From an uncultured Clostridia bacterium (GTDB lineage Bacteria; Bacillota; Clostridia; Christensenellales; Aristaeellaceae), in the NCBI GenBank assembly GCA_946187775.1, contig CAMHSI010000006.1:1-49127 (forward strand): a stretch of DNA of 49,127 bases, written 5' to 3'. Positions 39,327 to 47,996 of this stretch are shown piece by piece; positions within the stretch are counted from its first letter, which is position 1; every line of letters begins with the position of its first letter. Under the pieces are notes generated by a model. It worked only from the letters and a program-made list of their open reading frames with translations, was not told the origin of the DNA and searched no databases. The position numbers and the translations under genes were made by a program.

Positions 39327-39407
39327 TTATTCGAAGGTGTCCCCGACGTGGTTGATAATCCCGCCGACGCCCAGGGCCGTTGGCAGCTCCTCAATTGTGA
39401 CCAGGCT
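39327..39407 (-). other. C-terminal tail shared with the MucBP protein (candidate sorting signal)
   Basis: The last 26 residues run LVTIEELPTALGVGG, then INHVGDTFE and the stop. The same spacing of I-acid-acid, T-x-L-G-x-G, IN and G-acid-T-x-E occurs at the end of the protein at 47916. There is no membrane helix and no basic end. Confidence 0.7.
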
Positions 39408-42400
39408 GTTGTCCGGCATCCGTACGGTTTTCTTTTCCCCGTCTTCCGGTCCGGAGCCGACGGGGCAGCTGTTTATGAAGGTTGTAATCTTCCCGTTCTT
39501 TTCCGATGTTTTTGTATACCCCAGCACGCTCTGTTCGCTCCAGGTATATTCGATCCGCTTTCCCTTCGCGTATGCCGGCAGTCCGGTCACGGTAACCGTC
39601 CATCCGTTTGCCTCGTTCAGGTAGTAGGAGGTTCCGTTGCTCAGCGTAACCCGCAGGTTCGCCGGCCGCAGCCCCGCTGCGTTGTCCGCGTCGTCCCAGA
39701 CCTTGATCACCGTCGCTTCGGTAACCTCCGGTGTATGCTTGTTGGTGAAGATCGTTTCGGATCCTTCCGTGCTTACCTTCTCCTGCCGGTATCCCTTGAT
39801 CTCCGGCTCTGTCCATGTATAAGTAACAGCGTTTCCTGCCGCGTCGTACAGGGGAAGGTCCGTGATCGCGGCGGTCCACTCGTTTCCTTCGTTCAGCTCC
39901 GCTTTCATCCCGTTGCTCAGCGTCATCACGATGCTCGCCGGCCGGATCCCGTCCTGGTTGTTCCGGTCGTCCCAGACCTTCCGGACCGTGACCGTCGTTG
40001 TGATCACGTCATAGCGGTTCACCAGCCGGACGGCCGCCGTTTCCCCGCGGGTCACCTCCGCCTTCACGGACGTGACGGAATCCGCGCGGAGAATCAGCCG
40101 CTCCGCGATCCCGTCCGCGTTTTCCTCCGTTACGGTATATTCGCCGCTGGGAATCTCCCGCAGGGTATATTTTCCGTCGGTAAACAGGTCATAGGTCACG
40201 GTCCTGTCAAAGCCCTCCGGTCCCCGGATCCGGATACGCAGCGCGTTGAACTCCTTCGTCACGTCTGTTCCGGTGATTTCCTTTGTAATCTCCAGCGCAC
40301 CCAGCATGGGCAGGTAAGCATTGCGAATCGTTGCGGAGGCTTTCCCGCCGTTCAGGTCATCCAGCCGGATTTCCGCTGTTGCTTCAGACTGGCTTTCATC
40401 TGTTACATATCGGTCAATTCCAGCGCTTCCTGCTTCTTCCTCAACGGTGTATACCCCGTAGGGCAGGTCCTTCCATACGGCCGCGTGCTCCTCGGACACC
40501 TCTGTCCAGGCGCTGTCCGCCTTTGCCGCGGTTCCGTCCGTCCGGTAGTATTCCCCGTCCTCAGCCTTCACCCGAACCCGGAATACCTTTCCGGCCTTGT
40601 CCTCCTCTTTTACGCCGGTTACTTCCTTGGTCACCGTCAGGGTTCCGCGTTTCCGGATATAGGTGTTTGTCAGGGTAACCCCGGTCTCGCTCCCGTCCCC
40701 GGCCAGCTCCGCAATTCCGCCGTTCTCCGTCTCCGCTGTCAGGGAATAGGATTCAATCTGCGCGCTCCCCCCGTCCCCGATTCCCGCTTCGGTCACCGTG
40801 TACGTGCCGGGGCTCAGGTTCGCAAAGGTCACCGTCTCTCCCGCCCGGATACGGTTGATAATCTCTTCTGTCCCGGGTTTTCCTTCCGGAGAGATATATT
40901 CCGTCATGCCGTCTTTCGTTGTCCGTGTAACGGTGAATTCCCAGGACTGCTCTTTCGGGATCTTCCCGTCGTCCGAGGTCGTTTTCTTTGTTACTTTGAG
41001 CGTTCCCATGGGAAGCTTGTTGGTTATCACGGCGGTCCGTTCTCCGCCGGCATCGGCATCGATTGTCTCCGCGGCCTTTCCGTCCGCGTCCGCCTGGATG
41101 TAGCCCTGGACTGCAGGATCCTCCGTCCACTCATACTCCAGCACCTTCCCGTCCAGGATCCTGGGCAGGTCCGCCGCCAGCAGCCTCCATCCGGTTTCGC
41201 TTCCGATGGTATAGGAACGCTCAAAATCCGCGTTCACAGCCCGAAGCGTCACCTGTACGGAGTCAGGACGCATCCCGTTCCGGTCTTCCGCGTCATCCCA
41301 GGCCTTGAGGAGGGTCAGGGAGGTCATCTGCGGATCATACCGGTTGGTGATGGTGGTCGTGTTTCCGTCAACTTTGTATTCCGATGTCATGTAATACAGG
41401 TCTTTTGCCAGGCTCTTCTCGCGCCCCTCGTGGCTTATCGCCCTGTCTGATTCCACCCAGGAGTATTCCTGCACCACTCCTTTGACGTACACCGGAAGGT
41501 TCTTCAGCGTCGCCGCAAAGGGATCCGTCTCCTCCCCGAGGCTGACGCCCTCGCAACGCACGTTGCGGTAGGTCCCGGCGGTGTTTCTGTTGGTGAACGC
41601 CGGCTCTCCGCCGAGCTTTATGGAAAGCCCGGTGGGTTTGTTGTTCGCGTACAGCAGAACGGTGATGTTTTTCGGCCGCATTCCCTGTGCGTTGTCGTTG
41701 TCCTCCCAGGCCTTGCGTACTGTAAGATCCGTCAATGCCGGGTCGTGCTGGTTTGTCAGGGAGGTTTCCGTCAGGGGTTCTCCCTTTTCGGTTTTCTCTG
41801 TATTCCGCGCTTCACAGGTGTATTCCGCGCCATTGAAAACGATGATTCCCGTATCCTCAGCCGGTTCGGTTCTCTCCTCTCCCGTCAGGCTGTATTCCTT
41901 CCAATAGTAAGTGTATTCATTCCCCCACTTGTCCCAGCAGGGCAGTCCGTCCGTCCGGTATGTCCAGTTGTTTTCCTCGCTGAGCCTGACGCCATCCAGC
42001 ACGGTTTCGTCCGTCTCTTTTCCGTCCGGGTTCTCTCCCCGTGTTCCGGTTACCCGGCGGTGCAGCTCCGCCAGCAGCACCTCCGGCCGCTTTCCGTCCT
42101 GGTTGTCCGCGTCCTCCCAGCTCTTGACCACCGCCGTGCTGCGGTTCCGGATGTATTTGTTTGTGAATATAGTGCTTTCTTCTCCGTCCTCCGGAACGCG
42201 GGTCACCCGGATCGTACCGTCTCCCTGGTCTTCCGCAAGCAGTGTCAGGGTTTTCGGGGCGGGATCATAGTTCATGTACATCTCGCTGCCGGCCCGTTCC
42301 GTAATCCGATACGTAAGCTTCCCGGAGGCGGCTCCCCCCAGGTCCTCCCTTGTAATCCGGATCTCCGGAAGGGATCTGCTGACCGTATATTTCCCCGCCT

Positions 42401-42716
42401 CGTCCTTCGCGATCTCCAGCGTATATGCGCTTACCGCGTTTCCTTCAGCGTCCCGGGGAAGCGGCGCGCCGTTTTCCGCTTCAATGTCAAAAACAAACCG
42501 CTCCCCTTCCCGGAATTCCCTTCCCTCGATGGTTTTTGACAGCTCCAAGGTATAGGATCCTGCGGAGGCGTATTCGTTGACAAATACAAACGTCTCCGCG
42601 CTCCTGTCTTCTCCTGCCGGAGTATTTTCCGCAGCGGAAAAACCGCATGCGGAAAACATCCATACCAGCATGCAGATTGTGCAGATAAATGCCGAAATTC
42701 CCTTTTTTCTGATCAT
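39327..42716 (-). CDS. Cna-B/FctA-type surface protein with novel C-terminal tail
   Basis: An 1,129-residue exported protein. The signal peptide (about 1-30) ends FSACGFSAAE, so lipid attachment at the Cys is possible. One FctA pilin-type domain (about 40-185; SKTIEGREFREGERF) is followed by Cna-B domains recognisable by W-x-D-x-x-N-x-x-G-x-RP (KSWEDADNQDGKRP, RKAWEDNDNAQGMRP, LKAWDDAEDRNGMRP). Three SpaA-like modules (GTLKVTKK, GTLTVTKE, GALEITKE) and two more Cna-B domains follow. Each module ends in a TN-type motif (ITNRYDP, FTNKHTPE), as in isopeptide-stabilised domains. There is no LPXTG; the end is the tail listed separately. It is the first gene of the operon. Start 42716 has AGGGTGG upstream; the frame's earlier ATG (42806) lies in the leader. 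Confidence 0.9.
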   Translation of the reverse strand: MIRKKGISAFICTICMLVWMFSACGFSAAENTPAGEDRSAETFVFVNEYASAGSYTLELSKTIEGREFREGERFVFDIEAENGAPLPRDAEGNAVSAYTLEIAKDEAGKYTVSRSLPEIRITREDLGGAASGKLTYRITERAGSEMYMNYDPAPKTLTLLAEDQGDGTIRVTRVPEDGEESTIFTNKYIRNRSTAVVKSWEDADNQDGKRPEVLLAELHRRVTGTRGENPDGKETDETVLDGVRLSEENNWTYRTDGLPCWDKWGNEYTYYWKEYSLTGEERTEPAEDTGIIVFNGAEYTCEARNTEKTEKGEPLTETSLTNQHDPALTDLTVRKAWEDNDNAQGMRPKNITVLLYANNKPTGLSIKLGGEPAFTNRNTAGTYRNVRCEGVSLGEETDPFAATLKNLPVYVKGVVQEYSWVESDRAISHEGREKSLAKDLYYMTSEYKVDGNTTTITNRYDPQMTSLTLLKAWDDAEDRNGMRPDSVQVTLRAVNADFERSYTIGSETGWRLLAADLPRILDGKVLEYEWTEDPAVQGYIQADADGKAAETIDADAGGERTAVITNKLPMGTLKVTKKTTSDDGKIPKEQSWEFTVTRTTKDGMTEYISPEGKPGTEEIINRIRAGETVTFANLSPGTYTVTEAGIGDGGSAQIESYSLTAETENGGIAELAGDGSETGVTLTNTYIRKRGTLTVTKEVTGVKEEDKAGKVFRVRVKAEDGEYYRTDGTAAKADSAWTEVSEEHAAVWKDLPYGVYTVEEEAGSAGIDRYVTDESQSEATAEIRLDDLNGGKASATIRNAYLPMLGALEITKEITGTDVTKEFNALRIRIRGPEGFDRTVTYDLFTDGKYTLREIPSGEYTVTEENADGIAERLILRADSVTSVKAEVTRGETAAVRLVNRYDVITTTVTVRKVWDDRNNQDGIRPASIVMTLSNGMKAELNEGNEWTAAITDLPLYDAAGNAVTYTWTEPEIKGYRQEKVSTEGSETIFTNKHTPEVTEATVIKVWDDADNAAGLRPANLRVTLSNGTSYYLNEANGWTVTVTGLPAYAKGKRIEYTWSEQSVLGYTKTSEKNGKITTFINSCPVGSGPEDGEKKTVRMPDNSLVTIEELPTALGVGGIINHVGDTFE

Positions 42717-42760
42717 TCTCAGCCACCCTGATCCTTGTCTGTCGCAGCGTCGGGTTACTT

Positions 42761-42776
42761 GTTTATTTGTATAAAC
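42761..42776 (-). promoter_or_regulatory. Inverted repeat in the surface-operon leader
   Basis: GTTTAT-TTGT-ATAAAC, a perfect 6-bp inverted repeat 45-60 nt before the Cna-B start and downstream of the predicted transcription start. It may be an operator or an RNA hairpin. Confidence 0.35.
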
Positions 42777-42818
42777 GCTCTCCGAACAAAAGGAAAAAAA
42801 TTCCATTCACTCACATTA

Positions 42819-42847
42819 ATTGTACGGGAAGGAAAAGACAATTTCAA
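42819..42847 (-). promoter_or_regulatory. Sigma-A type promoter of the giant surface operon
   Basis: On the minus strand: TTGAAA, exactly 17 bp, TACAAT, about 100 bp upstream of the Cna-B start. It lies in a markedly A/T-rich divergent region (42780-43080). Confidence 0.65.
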
Positions 42848-43031
42848 GCACAATATTCCATTTTTTAACAGATTGGTCAATATTGCCAAATTTCTTATCA
42901 GTTTCGACCTGATTGGTACTTATTGGAAATGTATATGTTTCTCCGCTTCCGGCAGGATTTTTCCCCTGTGAAGCAGAATTCCCAGGGTTCTTTTAATCTG
43001 TATATCTTTTTCCAAAACTCTCCTGCTGTTC

Positions 43032-43060
43032 TTGACTTTCATCTTCCCTTGGACTATGAT
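43032..43060 (+). promoter_or_regulatory. Sigma-A type promoter of the small secreted protein gene
   Basis: TTGACT, 17 bp, TATGAT, about 55 bp before the start codon. It is close to consensus and back to back with the minus-strand operon promoter, about 185 bp away. Confidence 0.75.
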
Positions 43061-43115
43061 TTTCTCGGCTCATGTATGCAAAAATAAGTACATGAACAGA
43101 AAGGAAGAAAAGCAA

Positions 43116-43667
43116 ATGAAGAAACTGTTGGTAGCGCTGCTTGCCCTGGTGATGATGATGTCCTTTGCCATGGCTGAAACCGCTCAGGAAGAAAAGGTTG
43201 ACTACACCCAGATCCCTGAAGAAATCTTCGCCAAGGGCGCTGAAATCTCCATCACGGACTTTGTCGGCCAGCCTGCGAAGGTCTGGATCAGCGACGAGCT
43301 CTCCGAAGCTCCCCTGACCGACGAATTGAAGCAGTCCGGCGTGTTCATGGTTCTCGGCATGGCGGAAGGGACCGAAATGGAGCAGGTGGCCTTCCAGTAC
43401 CTGACCTCTGATGCGACCATGGAACAGTTTGTCGCTTCCCTGAAGGAAAATGCCCAGGTCACCACCGTTGAGGAGCCCACCAAGGTGCATGGCTTCGACG
43501 CTGTTTCCTACAATGTTGTAACGGAGCAGGGCAACCTGGCTTTCGCTACCTACAAGCTGGAAAAGGGCCTGCTGAATATCTATTTCCCGATTTCCACGAA
43601 CCCTGATTTCCTCAATCTGGCGGCCTACATGGCTTCCTCCCTGCAGGTGGAAGAGACGGCGGAATAA
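43116..43667 (+). CDS. Small secreted protein of unknown function
   Basis: A 183-residue exported protein whose signal peptide (about 1-20) ends in AMAETAQ. I do not recognise the mature part. It looks like one small alpha/beta domain: strands in AKVWISDEL and GFDAVSYNVVTEQGNLAFATYKL, helices in TMEQFVASLKEN and the C-terminal LNLAAYMASSLQ. ATG 43116 has AAGGAAG upstream and leads straight into the hydrophobic core; the frame's earlier ATGs (43032, 43092) are less likely. A near-consensus promoter and a strong terminator flank it, and codon use is biased to preferred codons, suggesting high expression. It lies between the surface operon and the S41 protease, so a role on the cell surface is likely. 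Confidence 0.82.
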   Translation: MKKLLVALLALVMMMSFAMAETAQEEKVDYTQIPEEIFAKGAEISITDFVGQPAKVWISDELSEAPLTDELKQSGVFMVLGMAEGTEMEQVAFQYLTSDATMEQFVASLKENAQVTTVEEPTKVHGFDAVSYNVVTEQGNLAFATYKLEKGLLNIYFPISTNPDFLNLAAYMASSLQVEETAE

Positions 43668-43703
43668 GACCGCCGGTTCGGTTTCCGGAATCCTGCCAAA
43701 GCA

Positions 43704-43741
43704 AACCGGCTGCCCCTGTGAAAGGGACAGTCGGTTTTTTT
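43704..43741 (+). terminator. Terminator after the small secreted protein
   Basis: AACCGGCTGCCCC pairs imperfectly with GGGACAGTCGGTT around a short loop, followed by seven T residues, about 40 bp after the stop. Confidence 0.85.
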
Positions 43742-43875
43742 GCTCCTGTTTCCTTATTTCCTTCTTTCCATTTTCCGGTTGCTTTTTTTGTCCGTATTGG
43801 GTAGTATAACTTAAAGGATACAAGGGGGGTGGCTGTCCGTCCCCCGGTCCGATCTTTGACACAAGGAGGAATAAA

Positions 43876-45813
43876 ATGAAAAGGTTTCTTGCCCTGCTGA
43901 CTGCCCTGGTTCTCTTTGCCGCCTGCGCCGGCGCGGAAAGCACCGCTGCTGAAACAGCGGCCCCCGCCGCGGATACAGTCCTCAACCCGGGAAAGCTGGA
44001 GTCGAAAACCGTTTCCTGGTATGCCTTAACCAAGGCAAACCTGGTTTCCGATGATCATGCCATGACCCTCTGGTTCTCCCCCAACGCCCCCGACCTGCCC
44101 TATATGGACCTGACGGACTGGGCCTCCATTGCCACCTATGTGGCGACGGAAATGGGGGCGAAGCCCGGCTACGAGCTGAAGGTAACAATGGATGACGCCG
44201 CGAAAACCGTTACCGTAACCCGTGAAAACGGCTATGACGCTGTTTTCAATTTCGCCGACGGAACCGTATCCTTCCTGGATTATGTGGCTTTTGTAAGTTC
44301 CCCTCACATTGCCTACCTGGATGTCGCAGGCGTTGAGAAGGAGCCGGGTGAGGATCCCACCCTGCTGAAGGTCGTCAGCCACCGTTCCCGTTATGGGAAT
44401 TATACCGTCCTGAATCTCGCCGATTACGACATTCCCATGATCATCCAGGACGGGAAGTACATTCTTCCCCTGCAGACGCTTTCAGCCCTTTTCTTTGCGG
44501 GAGTCGGCTCACCCTTCTTCTATAACGGAGTCAACGTCTTTGTCTCCGCGGGTGGTGAAATGCGCAATCCCCTGACTGCGCTGCAGCAAAACATCGCCTC
44601 TATCGCGACTCCCGAGCTGGAAGCTGCCATGGAAGCCTACGAGGGTTCCGAAGATGAGAAGCTCGCCTTCCTCCTCGATCAGGTCAGCAAGCTCTCCGAA
44701 GAAGGCGCCGCCATCGTGGAGAACTTCCGTAAAGCGTTGGCAAACACCCTGTACCCGGTCTATGCCTCCGTGCCCGCCGCAAAGCGCAGCGAGGATATGA
44801 TCATTTACGGCTATAATGAACTGTGCTTTGAGCTGGATAACTTCTATGGCCTGAAGGAAGCCCACAGCATCACAAATTTCAATACCTTCTTCCAGCAGAC
44901 CGGCCTGGTCAAAGGCCTCATGGATCCGGATCCCGCTGTTGCCGATGCCGCGATTGCCGAGCTCACCCGGTACTGGTTCGATGATATGCACTCCGGCTTC
45001 AACGCTGCCTCCTGCTACACAGAGGAAACCCCGGATGCCACTTTCGGTTACAGCACTTTAACCTCCTCCCACTGGGAAGAATCCGCCAAAGCTGCCCGCA
45101 AGCTCTATCCCGATGCCTCCAAATCGTATTTTGAGTGCGGAGATACGGCTTACGTCACCTTCGACGGCTTCGATATTGCTGAAACGGAAGACGGCAGTGA
45201 CTTCCCGGATTACTACGCGCTGCAGAAGGCCGATAAGCTTCCCATGGACACCATGGGCCTGATCATCTACGCCCATCAGCAGATCACCCGGGAAAACAGC
45301 CCGATCAAAAACGTGGTCATGGACCTGAGCTGCAATGGCGGCGGCATTGCCACAGTCGCGGCTTTCACCCTCTGCTGGTTCCTCGGCGATGCCCAGGTTT
45401 CCCAGCATCATACCTTCACCGACGCCCAGTCCACCATTACCTACCGTGCGGATGTCAACCTGGATCACGAGTTCGATGAGAAAGACACCCTCGCCGGCCG
45501 CGGCCTGAAGCTCTACTGCCTCATCTCCCCCACTTCCTTCTCCTGCGGCAACCTGGTGCCCTGGGGCTTCAAGGAAAACGGGGATGTCACCCTGCTGGGC
45601 AAAACCTCCGGCGGCGGCTCCTGCGTGGTGCTGCACATGTCCACCGCCTGGGGAACCTACTACCAGATTTCAGGACCCAAGCGCCTGGCCTTCGTGAAGA
45701 ACGGCTCCTACTATGATGTGGACCGTGGCGTCGAGCCGGATCACATCATCGATTCCTATGAGCATTTCTACGACCGCGAAGCCCTCACGAAGTATATCAA
45801 CAGTCTTTATTGA
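43876..45813 (+). CDS. Secreted S41-family (tail-specific) protease-like protein
   Basis: A 645-residue exported protein. The signal peptide (about 1-20) contains FAACAGAE, where the Cys might be lipidated. The N-terminal half (about 40-220) resembles a copper-amine-oxidase-N-like beta-domain (ALSALFFAGVGSPFFYNGVNVFVSAGG). The C-terminal part (about 400-645) follows the S41/C-terminal-processing-protease fold: AYVTFDGFD, VVMDLSCNGGG (substrate-binding strand), ISPTSFSCGN (candidate nucleophile Ser) and GKTSGGGSC. I see no clear PDZ domain or canonical Lys, so the exact catalytic pair is uncertain. The start has AAGGAGG 7 nt upstream. Its place beside surface-protein genes suggests trimming of exported proteins. 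Codon use is strongly biased, like the preceding gene. Confidence 0.8.
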   Translation: MKRFLALLTALVLFAACAGAESTAAETAAPAADTVLNPGKLESKTVSWYALTKANLVSDDHAMTLWFSPNAPDLPYMDLTDWASIATYVATEMGAKPGYELKVTMDDAAKTVTVTRENGYDAVFNFADGTVSFLDYVAFVSSPHIAYLDVAGVEKEPGEDPTLLKVVSHRSRYGNYTVLNLADYDIPMIIQDGKYILPLQTLSALFFAGVGSPFFYNGVNVFVSAGGEMRNPLTALQQNIASIATPELEAAMEAYEGSEDEKLAFLLDQVSKLSEEGAAIVENFRKALANTLYPVYASVPAAKRSEDMIIYGYNELCFELDNFYGLKEAHSITNFNTFFQQTGLVKGLMDPDPAVADAAIAELTRYWFDDMHSGFNAASCYTEETPDATFGYSTLTSSHWEESAKAARKLYPDASKSYFECGDTAYVTFDGFDIAETEDGSDFPDYYALQKADKLPMDTMGLIIYAHQQITRENSPIKNVVMDLSCNGGGIATVAAFTLCWFLGDAQVSQHHTFTDAQSTITYRADVNLDHEFDEKDTLAGRGLKLYCLISPTSFSCGNLVPWGFKENGDVTLLGKTSGGGSCVVLHMSTAWGTYYQISGPKRLAFVKNGSYYDVDRGVEPDHIIDSYEHFYDREALTKYINSLY

Positions 45814-45833
45814 TTCCTTGGAAATATGGTCCC

Positions 45834-47837
45834 TTACTCAGCCGGCTGGTCTCCAGCCGGCTCTTCTTCTGCCGGAATATACTCCGCCAGGTACGCTCCC
45901 AGGATCGCCTGGGGCCAGGAAACGGCGTCCCGGATCATGTAATCGTGCAGAACCTGGGGATAGAAGTCAAAGTATACGTTGGAATAAATCGGCAGCGCCG
46001 GAAGCGTCTCCATGAACCGCTTCTGGAACTCAAGCCATTTGGCGCAGTACCCCAGCACGTCCGCCGGCTCCGTCTGCCGCATGGAAACCGCATGCTCCCA
46101 GAGCTCGTCGTCCTCCAGCGCGGAAGTCTTCCAAACGTGGTGCCCGTCCTCCGTCTCGGTGAAGTTCAGGGACGGGTCATACAGCGTGTCAAAGTTCGTC
46201 GCCAGGAAGAACATGTCGTAGTGCGCTTCATCCAGCCGGTAATACTCCTTCAGCAGCGTTTCCGTTGGGATCGCATATACCTCCAGCTCGATTCCGCCCT
46301 CTCCCAGGGAGCTCACCAGCCGTCCCTCCAGCTCCGGCGCAACGGTGCTTCCCAGGCCGTAGGCGATGCTCAGCTGCAGCGGCACAAGCTCCTCCCCGTC
46401 CTTCCGGTACCGCACCTTGTCCGTTCCGGGAACAAAGGCTTCTCCCTTTTCGTTCAGGTTCCATCCGGCGTCCGCAAGGAGCTGGTTCCCCTTCTCCGCA
46501 TCCCGGTCATAAGGGGTGATTTCGCTCAGGGACAGAGCTTCCCACTGTTTCGTCAGCTCCTCGTCCCCTTCTTCCCCGTCCTCTGTCTGCGTTCCCGGAT
46601 ATCCTACGGATCCGTTGAGCACCAAGTACATCCACTGGCCCAGTCCGAAATAGCCCTGGGCCCGCATTCCGTATCCGCCCAGCGTTTCCTGGACGATGCC
46701 ATCCCGGTCCGTCAGGTAGGCGATGGCCTGCCGCACCGCCGGGTCGTTCATCGGCGCCCGCTCCGTGTTGAAGTTGATGAAGCCCAGTCCGCTTCTCTCA
46801 TAGTTGGTATAGGTCAGTCCCTCCTGCCCCGCGGCGGTCTCCAGGCATTTCGTAATGTCGTCCTTGTCGCTCACCTTGTTCAGCAGGCTGATGCTTCCGT
46901 CCCCGTATATCTCGGGCAGGTCCGCGGACACCGTGGATCCCATGGTGATTTTCGGAATCATGGGCTTCTTTCCCGCGGAGTTTCCCTTGTACCGCGGGTT
47001 GATCTCAAACTGCGCCGTTCCGTTCTCGTAGGAGGTCAGCACATAAGGTCCGCTGCATACCGAAGGATGGGTCCGGTATCCCGTTTCCGCGTCCAGGATC
47101 GTTTCTTTCAGCAGCTCCGCGGTGAACACGGGCTCTTCCCTGTCCGGATCCTCGTTGGCCAGGTAAATCCCGTTTCCGTCGTCCTTCACGGTCACTCCGG
47201 GAGCGATCACGGAGATGGGATACGGCACGCAGTCCAGCAGTCCCAGCTCGTAGAAGAAGGGCAGGTATCCGGAGTCAATCGTGATGTTGATCATATCGTC
47301 CGCCGTAACCCGCACCCCGGACAGGCTAGAAGCCTTCCCGGTAATGTAGTCGTTGTATCCGGAGATGTATACCGGCGTCTTTACCGCCGCTCCCAGCTCC
47401 CGCATTTCCGGCGCCATGCTCAGCAGCATGGAAAATGCGTAATCCCAGGCCGTTATCCGGCTTCCGTCGCTGTAGTACAGGTCGTCATACAGCACGATGA
47501 TGAACGTAATGTCCCCGTCTGCCTGCTGCATGGCGGTGATACCGCTGACCACGGAGTGATCCGGAACAAACACGGCCTCTTTCACGTCCCATTCAATCAG
47601 GTTGTATCCGTGGATCATGGACCGCACGTCCAGGTCGCTGCTTCCGTTTCCCCACATGGATGTGAAGAAATTCCCCGTCAGCGGCGTGGTCACGGTTACC
47701 CGGAGTTCCTCGTAGTCAACGGCAGGCTGTTCGGTCAGTTCCGCGGCGGCGTTCTCCTCCGCTTCCTCCGCCCATGCGCCGAAAACCATCATCAGCGCGA
47801 GGATGCAGGCCAGGATTCCTGTCAGCGTTTTCTTCAT
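45834..47837 (-). CDS. Second family 5 solute-binding protein, permease-less paralogue
   Basis: A 667-residue exported protein with a signal peptide ending GAWAEEAEE. It matches the protein at 37066-39264 block for block: DLDVRSMIHGYNLIEWD, VLYDDLYYSDGSRITAWDYAFS, SGPYVLTSYENG, RQAIAYLTDRDG and IYSNVYFDFYPQVL. It ends in a short Glu-rich tail (PAEEEPAGDQPAE). The ATG at 47837 follows AAAGGAG; the earlier ATG at 47876 is in the intergenic hairpin. It follows the MBG/MucBP surface protein on the same strand after 78 bp, repeating the surface protein-solute-binding protein order of the larger operon. No permease or ATPase is present. The convergent S41 gene ends 20 bp away. Confidence 0.87.
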   Translation of the reverse strand: MKKTLTGILACILALMMVFGAWAEEAEENAAAELTEQPAVDYEELRVTVTTPLTGNFFTSMWGNGSSDLDVRSMIHGYNLIEWDVKEAVFVPDHSVVSGITAMQQADGDITFIIVLYDDLYYSDGSRITAWDYAFSMLLSMAPEMRELGAAVKTPVYISGYNDYITGKASSLSGVRVTADDMINITIDSGYLPFFYELGLLDCVPYPISVIAPGVTVKDDGNGIYLANEDPDREEPVFTAELLKETILDAETGYRTHPSVCSGPYVLTSYENGTAQFEINPRYKGNSAGKKPMIPKITMGSTVSADLPEIYGDGSISLLNKVSDKDDITKCLETAAGQEGLTYTNYERSGLGFINFNTERAPMNDPAVRQAIAYLTDRDGIVQETLGGYGMRAQGYFGLGQWMYLVLNGSVGYPGTQTEDGEEGDEELTKQWEALSLSEITPYDRDAEKGNQLLADAGWNLNEKGEAFVPGTDKVRYRKDGEELVPLQLSIAYGLGSTVAPELEGRLVSSLGEGGIELEVYAIPTETLLKEYYRLDEAHYDMFFLATNFDTLYDPSLNFTETEDGHHVWKTSALEDDELWEHAVSMRQTEPADVLGYCAKWLEFQKRFMETLPALPIYSNVYFDFYPQVLHDYMIRDAVSWPQAILGAYLAEYIPAEEEPAGDQPAE

Positions 47838-47868
47838 ATCCTGTAGTCTCCTTTTTTGAAGCAATATA

Positions 47869-47898
47869 CCCGACACGCCTTTTGTGCGTGCCGGGTTT
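47869..47898 (-). terminator. Hairpin between the MucBP protein and the solute-binding protein
   Basis: CCCGACACGC / GCGTGCCGGG, 10 bp with one mismatch and a 7-nt loop. The T-rich tail is better on the + strand (GTTTTGAGTTTTTT) than on the minus strand (TATATTGC). It may partly stop transcription between the two minus-strand genes or protect the upstream mRNA. Confidence 0.6.
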
Positions 47899-47915
47899 TG
47901 AGTTTTTTCCCCGGT

Positions 47916-47996
47916 TTACTCGATGGTTTCGCCGGCGTTGATGCTGCCGAGGCCGAGGCCCAAAGGCGTCTCAAAGTCGTCGATGTGAATCAGGTT
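47916..47996 (-). other. C-terminal tail shared with the Cna-B protein (candidate sorting signal)
   Basis: The last 26 residues run LIHIDDFETPLGLGLG, then INAGETIE and the stop. They align with the Cna-B protein end (LVTIEELPTALGVGG ... INHVGDTFE), although the rest of the two proteins share no domain type at this end. Confidence 0.7.

Follow-up and report, generated by a model that had tools for sequence, protein, structure and literature searches.

The window analysed here is a stretch of 49,127 nucleotides (nt) of contig CAMHSI010000006.1, from an uncultured Clostridia bacterium, in which two surface proteins encoded on the minus strand, P0001 and P0002, were compared. The two proteins end in a short conserved tail that stands at the extreme C-terminus, and behind each tail gene, on the same strand, lies a gene for an OppA/AppA-like solute-binding protein (SBP) of the SBP_bac_5 family, giving two such pairs in the window, P0001-P0006 and P0002-P0004. 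The pairing recurs in other genomes of the bacterial family, and we consider it probable that the tail serves for docking, as a C-terminal tag held by the SBP of the adjoining gene.

Results

The tail motif and its copies

P0001 (39327-42806, minus strand) is a Cna-B repeat protein of 1159 amino acids (aa) (Cna_B 186.9 bits, FctA and DUF7601 above cut-off) that ends in ...LVTIEELPTALGVGGIINHVGDTFE before the stop codon, and P0002 (47916-49127, minus strand, 5' end beyond the window) is a MucBP-type protein with 403 aa visible (MucBP 24.5 bits, cut-off 23) that ends in ...LIHIDDFETPLGLGLGSINAGETIE before the stop codon. The two tails lie at 39327-39407 (minus strand, core INHVGDTFE-stop, uncovered by Pfam and NCBIfam models) and at 47916-47996 (minus strand, core SINAGETIE-stop), exactly where an earlier note on this DNA had placed them, and their ungapped alignment has 9 identical columns out of 31. 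The pattern given in that note was confirmed but for one detail: the shared end G-[DE]-T-[FI]-E-stop stands, but the 'IN' is one residue closer to the end in P0002. Among 103 open reading frames (ORFs) of at least 100 aa in the window, P0001 and P0002 are the only ones ending in G-[DE]-[CTS]-x-[DE].

Over more copies the motif is ungapped, with its register counted from the stop codon, and reads roughly [IF]-[ED]-[ED]-Y-x-T-[PA]-L-G-x4-I-N-H-V-G-[DE]-C-[FY]-[DE]-stop, its core N-H-V-G-[DE]-C-[FY]-[DE]-stop showing frequent variants. In a set of 128 tails, which overstates uniformity because the filter demanded Gly at -5 and Asp or Glu at -1 and because many of its tails came from the search with the [IM]NHVGDC[FY][DE] DNA pattern, position -3 is Cys in 115, Thr in 9, Ser in 2, Asn in 1 and Ile in 1, and codons vary where residues are constant. 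The window copies, with Thr at -3, carry the rarer residue at the place of the usual Cys. The exact back-translated pattern [IM]NHVGDC[FY][DE] gave 99 matches in 96 stretches, 85 of them in one-genome-per-species contigs and 11 in IMG/VR, and 97 of the matches stand immediately before a stop codon (expected about 3/64); the other two lie in L160, which is an Acidithrix record, and in L171. Judged by title, the best 80 of the 85 stretches are nearly all metagenome-assembled genomes of ruminant-gut or uncultured Clostridia, Clostridiales or Christensenellaceae. T-P-L-G is missing from several SBP-paired tails that retain the last residues, and the core of the motif seems to be the last 8-10 residues. 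In two tail copies (L112 and L164) an in-frame stop was seen shortly upstream of the core, and these are perhaps decayed genes.

Proteins that carry the tail

When the last 216 aa of P0001 were modelled together with 25 relatives, the Cna-B part had block-mean predicted local distance difference test (pLDDT) values of 91-98, and the last 46 residues, comprising linker and tail, had pLDDT values of 47-66 and no secondary structure; according to this model the tail is conserved yet unstructured on its own. The ectodomains in front of it consist of Cna-B, MucBP, DUF7507/DUF11, Pro-rich stretches, or a sortase plus MucBP. A hydrophobic segment was found within the first 90 residues in 48 of 56 tail ORFs, phage-like ones included, whose start lies in the fetched DNA, and the remaining 8 begin inside repeat- or linker-like sequence. 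The possibility that the tail is the end of a Cna-B or MucBP domain was rejected in view of the variable, gapped linker between Cna-B and tail, the tail's lack of structure in the model and its occurrence after MucBP, Pro-rich and sortase parts. The earlier claim that the tail is conserved independently of the preceding domains, as a signal at the C-terminus of exported surface proteins that are in many cases large, is thus upheld, and the outcome feared there, that it would prove to be the end of a known domain, did not occur.

Nor did a profile find the two window proteins only, which was the other outcome feared. A profile of 29 tails, all from genomes of the window's genus (profile A2), matched 34 of the 37 genomes from that genus and none of the 24 other relatives (E<=0.1), and outside the genus 35 further family genomes matched (E<=1e-4). 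Across 150 genomes of the family, 90 matches were obtained in 45 genomes belonging to 12 of 39 genera (E<=1e-4). At the level of the order, 13 of 396 genomes matched (E<=0.01). Twelve belong to the window's family; the thirteenth match was partial (E 0.0076) and was taken as chance.

Pairing of tail genes with a solute-binding protein

The gene of P0006 (37066-39264, minus strand; SBP_bac_5 126.6 bits, cut-off 32.4) begins 62 nt downstream of P0001, and the open frame of P0004 (45834-47876, minus strand; 114 bits, same cut-off) begins 39 nt downstream of P0002. Both are predicted to adopt the oligopeptide-binding fold; the N-terminus of P0006 resembles a signal peptide and lacks a lipobox, and no lipobox was seen in P0004 either. 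A relative of these two SBPs lies directly behind the tail gene in 79 of 113 distinct cellular tail loci with at least 600 nt of downstream sequence.

To avoid selecting loci by the tail alone, a profile of 36 partner SBPs (profile A3) was run on the 150 family genomes, at most 7 SBP candidates being scored per genome, and it matched 70 of them (E<=1e-60), namely all 45 genomes with a tail and 25 of the 105 others (Fisher p 1.5e-20, uncorrected for relatedness). Among the matches listed, 88 SBP matches that include the N-terminal part were set beside the 90 tail matches, and at least 71 of the 90 tails have an SBP 10-273 nt behind them (71 of the 88 SBP matches listed). Of the other 17 SBPs, 15 sit behind a gene with a divergent tail (11 of the 11 first fetched and 4 more), and these divergent tails, several of them without TPLG, all end in G-[DEI]-[CST]-x-[DE]. 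Taking all distinct complete SBPs together, a set in which many loci had been fetched through the tail, 125 of 130 stand behind a gene ending in G-x-x-x-[DE], and 3 more have a tail at the contig edge. No permease-like ORF was found on the same strand within 3 kb downstream of the 73 partners (of 125) with at least 1 kb of downstream sequence, while the same five queries, run on loci fetched for other SBPs, found 13 such ORFs spread over 11 of these loci.

When 297 genomes of the order were searched with the SBP profile, 16 matched (E<=1e-45): 13 belong to the window's family, 2 belong to another family and 1 has an importer-like SBP. In the phylum the profile matched 1 of 398 genomes, the window's own (E<=1e-60). 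These absences carry less weight than the counts imply, because at most 3 (order) or 2 (phylum) candidates were scored per genome. Since the window's own genome alone matches in the phylum sample, the tail-SBP system seems, on these profile searches, to be limited to one order. In the two genomes of another family of the order (L298 and L299), the SBP lies behind a gene with the tail VPLA...GNQ[TV]GECFE, and the SBP of L299 may be a lipoprotein.

Processing enzymes and known sorting signals

The earlier note had held that the tail does not follow the plan of LPXTG, PEP-CTERM or GlyGly-CTERM tags, and this was confirmed by the absence of a helix, a basic end or a model match. A hydrophobic 17-residue window (mean hydropathy >=1.6) occurs in the last 50 residues of 1 of 172 tails, and Lys or Arg in the last 10 residues of 3 of 172, whereas the hydropathy score reaches 2.59-2.79 in four LPSTG pilins encoded at the same loci; with no C-terminal helix and almost no basic residue, the tail is therefore not a tripartite sorting signal. 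The tail thus shows neither the LPXTG combination (motif, helix and basic end, with a sortase in every genome that has the signal), nor that of PEP-CTERM (an exosortase, helix plus basic end and a match to a CTERM model), nor that of MYXO-CTERM (an invariant Cys, with helix plus Arg-rich end). No match to Gram_pos_anchor (PF00746) was found in the window's genome, and exosortase (PF09721) was above cut-off in 0 of 150 family genomes, with 2 weak sub-threshold matches.

A sortase was found in 122 of the 150 family genomes, comprising 40 of the 45 with tails and 82 of the 105 without a tail match. The five tail genomes in which none was found are G071, G471, G476, G480 and G528, the last judged by its absence from the 122, and draft genomes may miss genes; G071 is 97% complete in about 3 contigs and has 2 tails and SBPs. 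The S41 peptidase encoded between the window's two pairs on the opposite strand (43876-45813, plus strand), with a signal-peptide-like start, was rejected as a processing enzyme, a relative being present in 1 of 97 tail loci of at least 7 kb, the window itself. The expectation that a protease or transpeptidase would co-occur with the tail was thus not borne out for sortase, exosortase or S41 peptidase, none of which tracks the tail (rhombosortase and myxosortase-like proteases were not searched for). As to the suggested role in anchoring, secretion or processing, what survives is the independent tag and what falls away is the processing enzyme; what does track the tail is an SBP of a peptide-binding kind, and this partnership points to docking and not to processing.

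Sortase genes do lie close to some tails, a link that is explained in part only. In 9 loci (L061-L064, L066, L071, L073, L118 and L125) a sortase gene stands immediately upstream of the tail gene, and in 5 (L067-L069, L207 and L213) the tail is on the sortase itself, some of them from closely related genomes. Ten of these loci (L061-L064, L066-L069, L207 and L213) are pilus-like, with LPSTG pilins or a signal peptidase, then a sortase, at times fused to MucBP and tail, and then the SBP partner of the tail; in L067 a signal peptidase gene (S26) precedes the tail gene.

Phage-borne tails

Eleven IMG/VR contigs of up to 193 kb (L176-L186) encode 9 distinct exported-looking products ending in INHVGDCFD, and 9 of 10 proteins tried from such phage-like contigs match PHROG, including RNA ligase, ATPase and homing endonuclease. 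Eight of the phage-like tail proteins were scanned: 6 have Cna_B, SpaA or pAdhesive_15 above cut-off, 1 has a sub-threshold VWA and 1 gave nothing. No SBP relative was found within 3 kb downstream in the fetched DNA for the 9 distinct phage-like tails, and the tail protein of L181 has no match in INPHARED phages.

Other genes of the window

P0003 (22307-35419, minus strand) has 4370 residues with BspA-type leucine-rich repeats and FctA domains, and ends without a tail or an LPXTG-type end. It was rejected as a third tail protein, no tail being found in the three frames of its strand around or just past the stop. Downstream of the second SBP, P0007 (35483-37057, minus strand) has long E-P-A repeats and a distinct C-terminal part; kinship of this part with a small phage protein was considered and dropped, phmmer returning P0007 itself only.

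Discussion

We propose that the surface protein is exported and would present, after a flexible linker, a short unstructured peptide with a free carboxylate and a core, [I]NHVG[DE]C[FY][DE], of about 9 residues. An exported SBP of OppA/AppA type would be made from the gene that follows, its cleft would hold the tail peptide with no delivery to a transporter, and the bound SBP might then escort the surface protein, help it to fold or cap it. The tag and its position, the pairing of the genes, their co-occurrence and the predicted fold family are results of the analysis; physical binding and the cleft as its site are inferred, and the role after binding is the part of which we are least sure. 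In some operons a sortase, or the product of a gene next to a sortase gene, bears the tag, and there the SBP would dock to the sortase machinery, while tails with no neighbouring SBP, phage-encoded ones among them, would be served by an SBP in trans, which for the phages would be that of the host. A wider proposal, to which we give even chances, is that importer SBPs became dedicated external receptors that clamp a free C-terminal nonapeptide, an arrangement on the bacterial surface needing neither cleavage nor a membrane anchor of its own, and that this system multiplied within genomes, became linked to sortase operons and was borrowed by large phages encoding adhesin-like proteins with the host's tag.

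Of the other explanations, the least unlikely is that the SBP binds nutrients in the ordinary way and is co-regulated with an adhesin, the tail serving otherwise, for example in wall binding. SBP_bac_5 proteins usually serve ABC (ATP-binding cassette) importers, and 34 of the 113 tail loci have no adjoining SBP. On the other hand, 128 of the 130 SBPs are tied to a tail gene, none of the 73 partners has a permease-like ORF behind it, and the tie spans Cna-B, MucBP, Pro-rich and sortase ectodomains, so that the tail is the common element, and we regard this explanation as unlikely. A little more doubtful still is a sortase sorting signal in which T-[PA]-L-G replaces LPXTG, the tail being cleaved and the protein joined to wall or pilus. 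The 9 loci with a sortase gene directly upstream, the 5 in which the sortase bears the tail and the presence of sortase in 40 of the 45 tail genomes speak for this explanation. However, sortase is also present in 82 of the 105 genomes without a tail match and was not found in 5 tail genomes, G071 included; the motif is followed by no helix and almost no basic residue, although LPSTG pilins stand in the same loci; T-P-L-G is lost from several SBP-paired tails in which the last residues are kept; and a sortase bearing its own cleavage signal would be odd.

It is less probable again that a protease frees the C-terminal peptide as a signal, which the SBP senses or imports like a pheromone-binding SBP. 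Close variants of one motif occur in 12 genera, unlike a species-specific signal, and the S41 relative confined to the window itself among 97 loci argues against this explanation, as does the same lack of permease-like ORFs. A further candidate, a disulfide or other covalent link between the tail Cys and Cys413 of the SBP, looked promising in raw counts, but a tree-aware test, of low power with 5 (tail) and 7 (SBP) independent changes on the tree, found no association.

Several observations, the lack of support for a covalent link among them, weigh against the docking proposal itself. The 34 of 113 distinct loci with no SBP directly downstream are one, and the few candidates scored per genome in the family search are another. 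Nineteen tail matches had no SBP match behind them in the family search; an SBP is present after all at two of these (G018:C9 and G505), and the remaining 17, in nine genomes of the window's genus, have no adjoining SBP as far as seen; each of these genomes has an SBP elsewhere, of the best-scoring class except in G019, which has two such tails and no SBP of that class. Conversely, 2 of the 130 SBPs (L283 and L285) stand behind no tail gene, and two family SBPs stand behind genes with off-motif ends, ...NVADCLE and ...NTGESFH. Tail classes and SBP classes agree, which may reflect nothing more than co-inheritance. A simple lipobox pattern is found in 8 of 125 partners, which makes retention of the SBP at the surface hard to account for. 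Asn replaces the N-terminus-docking Asp in 110 of 125 partners, which is weak evidence because lactococcal OppA is reported to anchor peptides by other means. As to the lipobox, importer SBPs of the same genomes, encoded next to ABC permeases (L209, L211 and L214), seem by eye to be without clear ones too, and its lack was dropped as a hallmark of the partners.

A literature text search restricted to open-licence papers found no published account of the NHVGDC tail or of the tail-SBP pairing. The C-terminal sorting tags described in the sources excerpted here work via a membrane helix and a processing enzyme, and if docking is true, a tag that is the ligand of a peptide-binding protein would offer a further means of sorting, folding or holding proteins at the surface. 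It would also assign a function to a set of SBPs that are readily annotated as importers, and nonapeptide and SBP together would form a simple, testable code for the surfaces of ruminant-gut bacteria and phages.

The family 5 SBPs that resemble the partners most, AppA and lactococcal OppA, differ from them in several respects: the partners are encoded behind a tail gene with no permease-like ORF in 73 of 73 checked, rarely show the lipobox pattern (8/125) and mostly have Asn for the docking Asp (110/125). Yersinia OppA is a peptide-binding SBP reported to have chaperone-like activity on proteins besides its transporter service; compared with that general activity, the SBP described here is an operon partner with a fixed C-terminal motif. 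LPXTG/sortase, PEP-CTERM/exosortase, GlyGly-CTERM/rhombosortase and MYXO-CTERM/myxosortase tags are described, in the excerpts used, as tripartite, with a motif, a hydrophobic helix and a basic end. Like these sorting tags, as outlined in the passages of PMC11980579 drawn on, the tail is a short stretch of C-terminal homology shared, within one genome, by many secreted proteins that otherwise differ, and like MYXO-CTERM, the motif of which has an invariant Cys in the same passages (PMC11980579), it has a Cys in its motif (115 of 128 tails). The tail is unlike them in lacking a helix and almost any Lys or Arg, and in having a binding protein, not a protease, as its partner. An analogy in kind may also be drawn with cohesin and dockerin, in which a C-terminal module on many exported proteins is caught by a dedicated partner, whereas the tail is a peptide of about 9-17 residues and not a folded domain, and its proposed receptor is an SBP that is mostly encoded by its own gene directly behind the tail gene.

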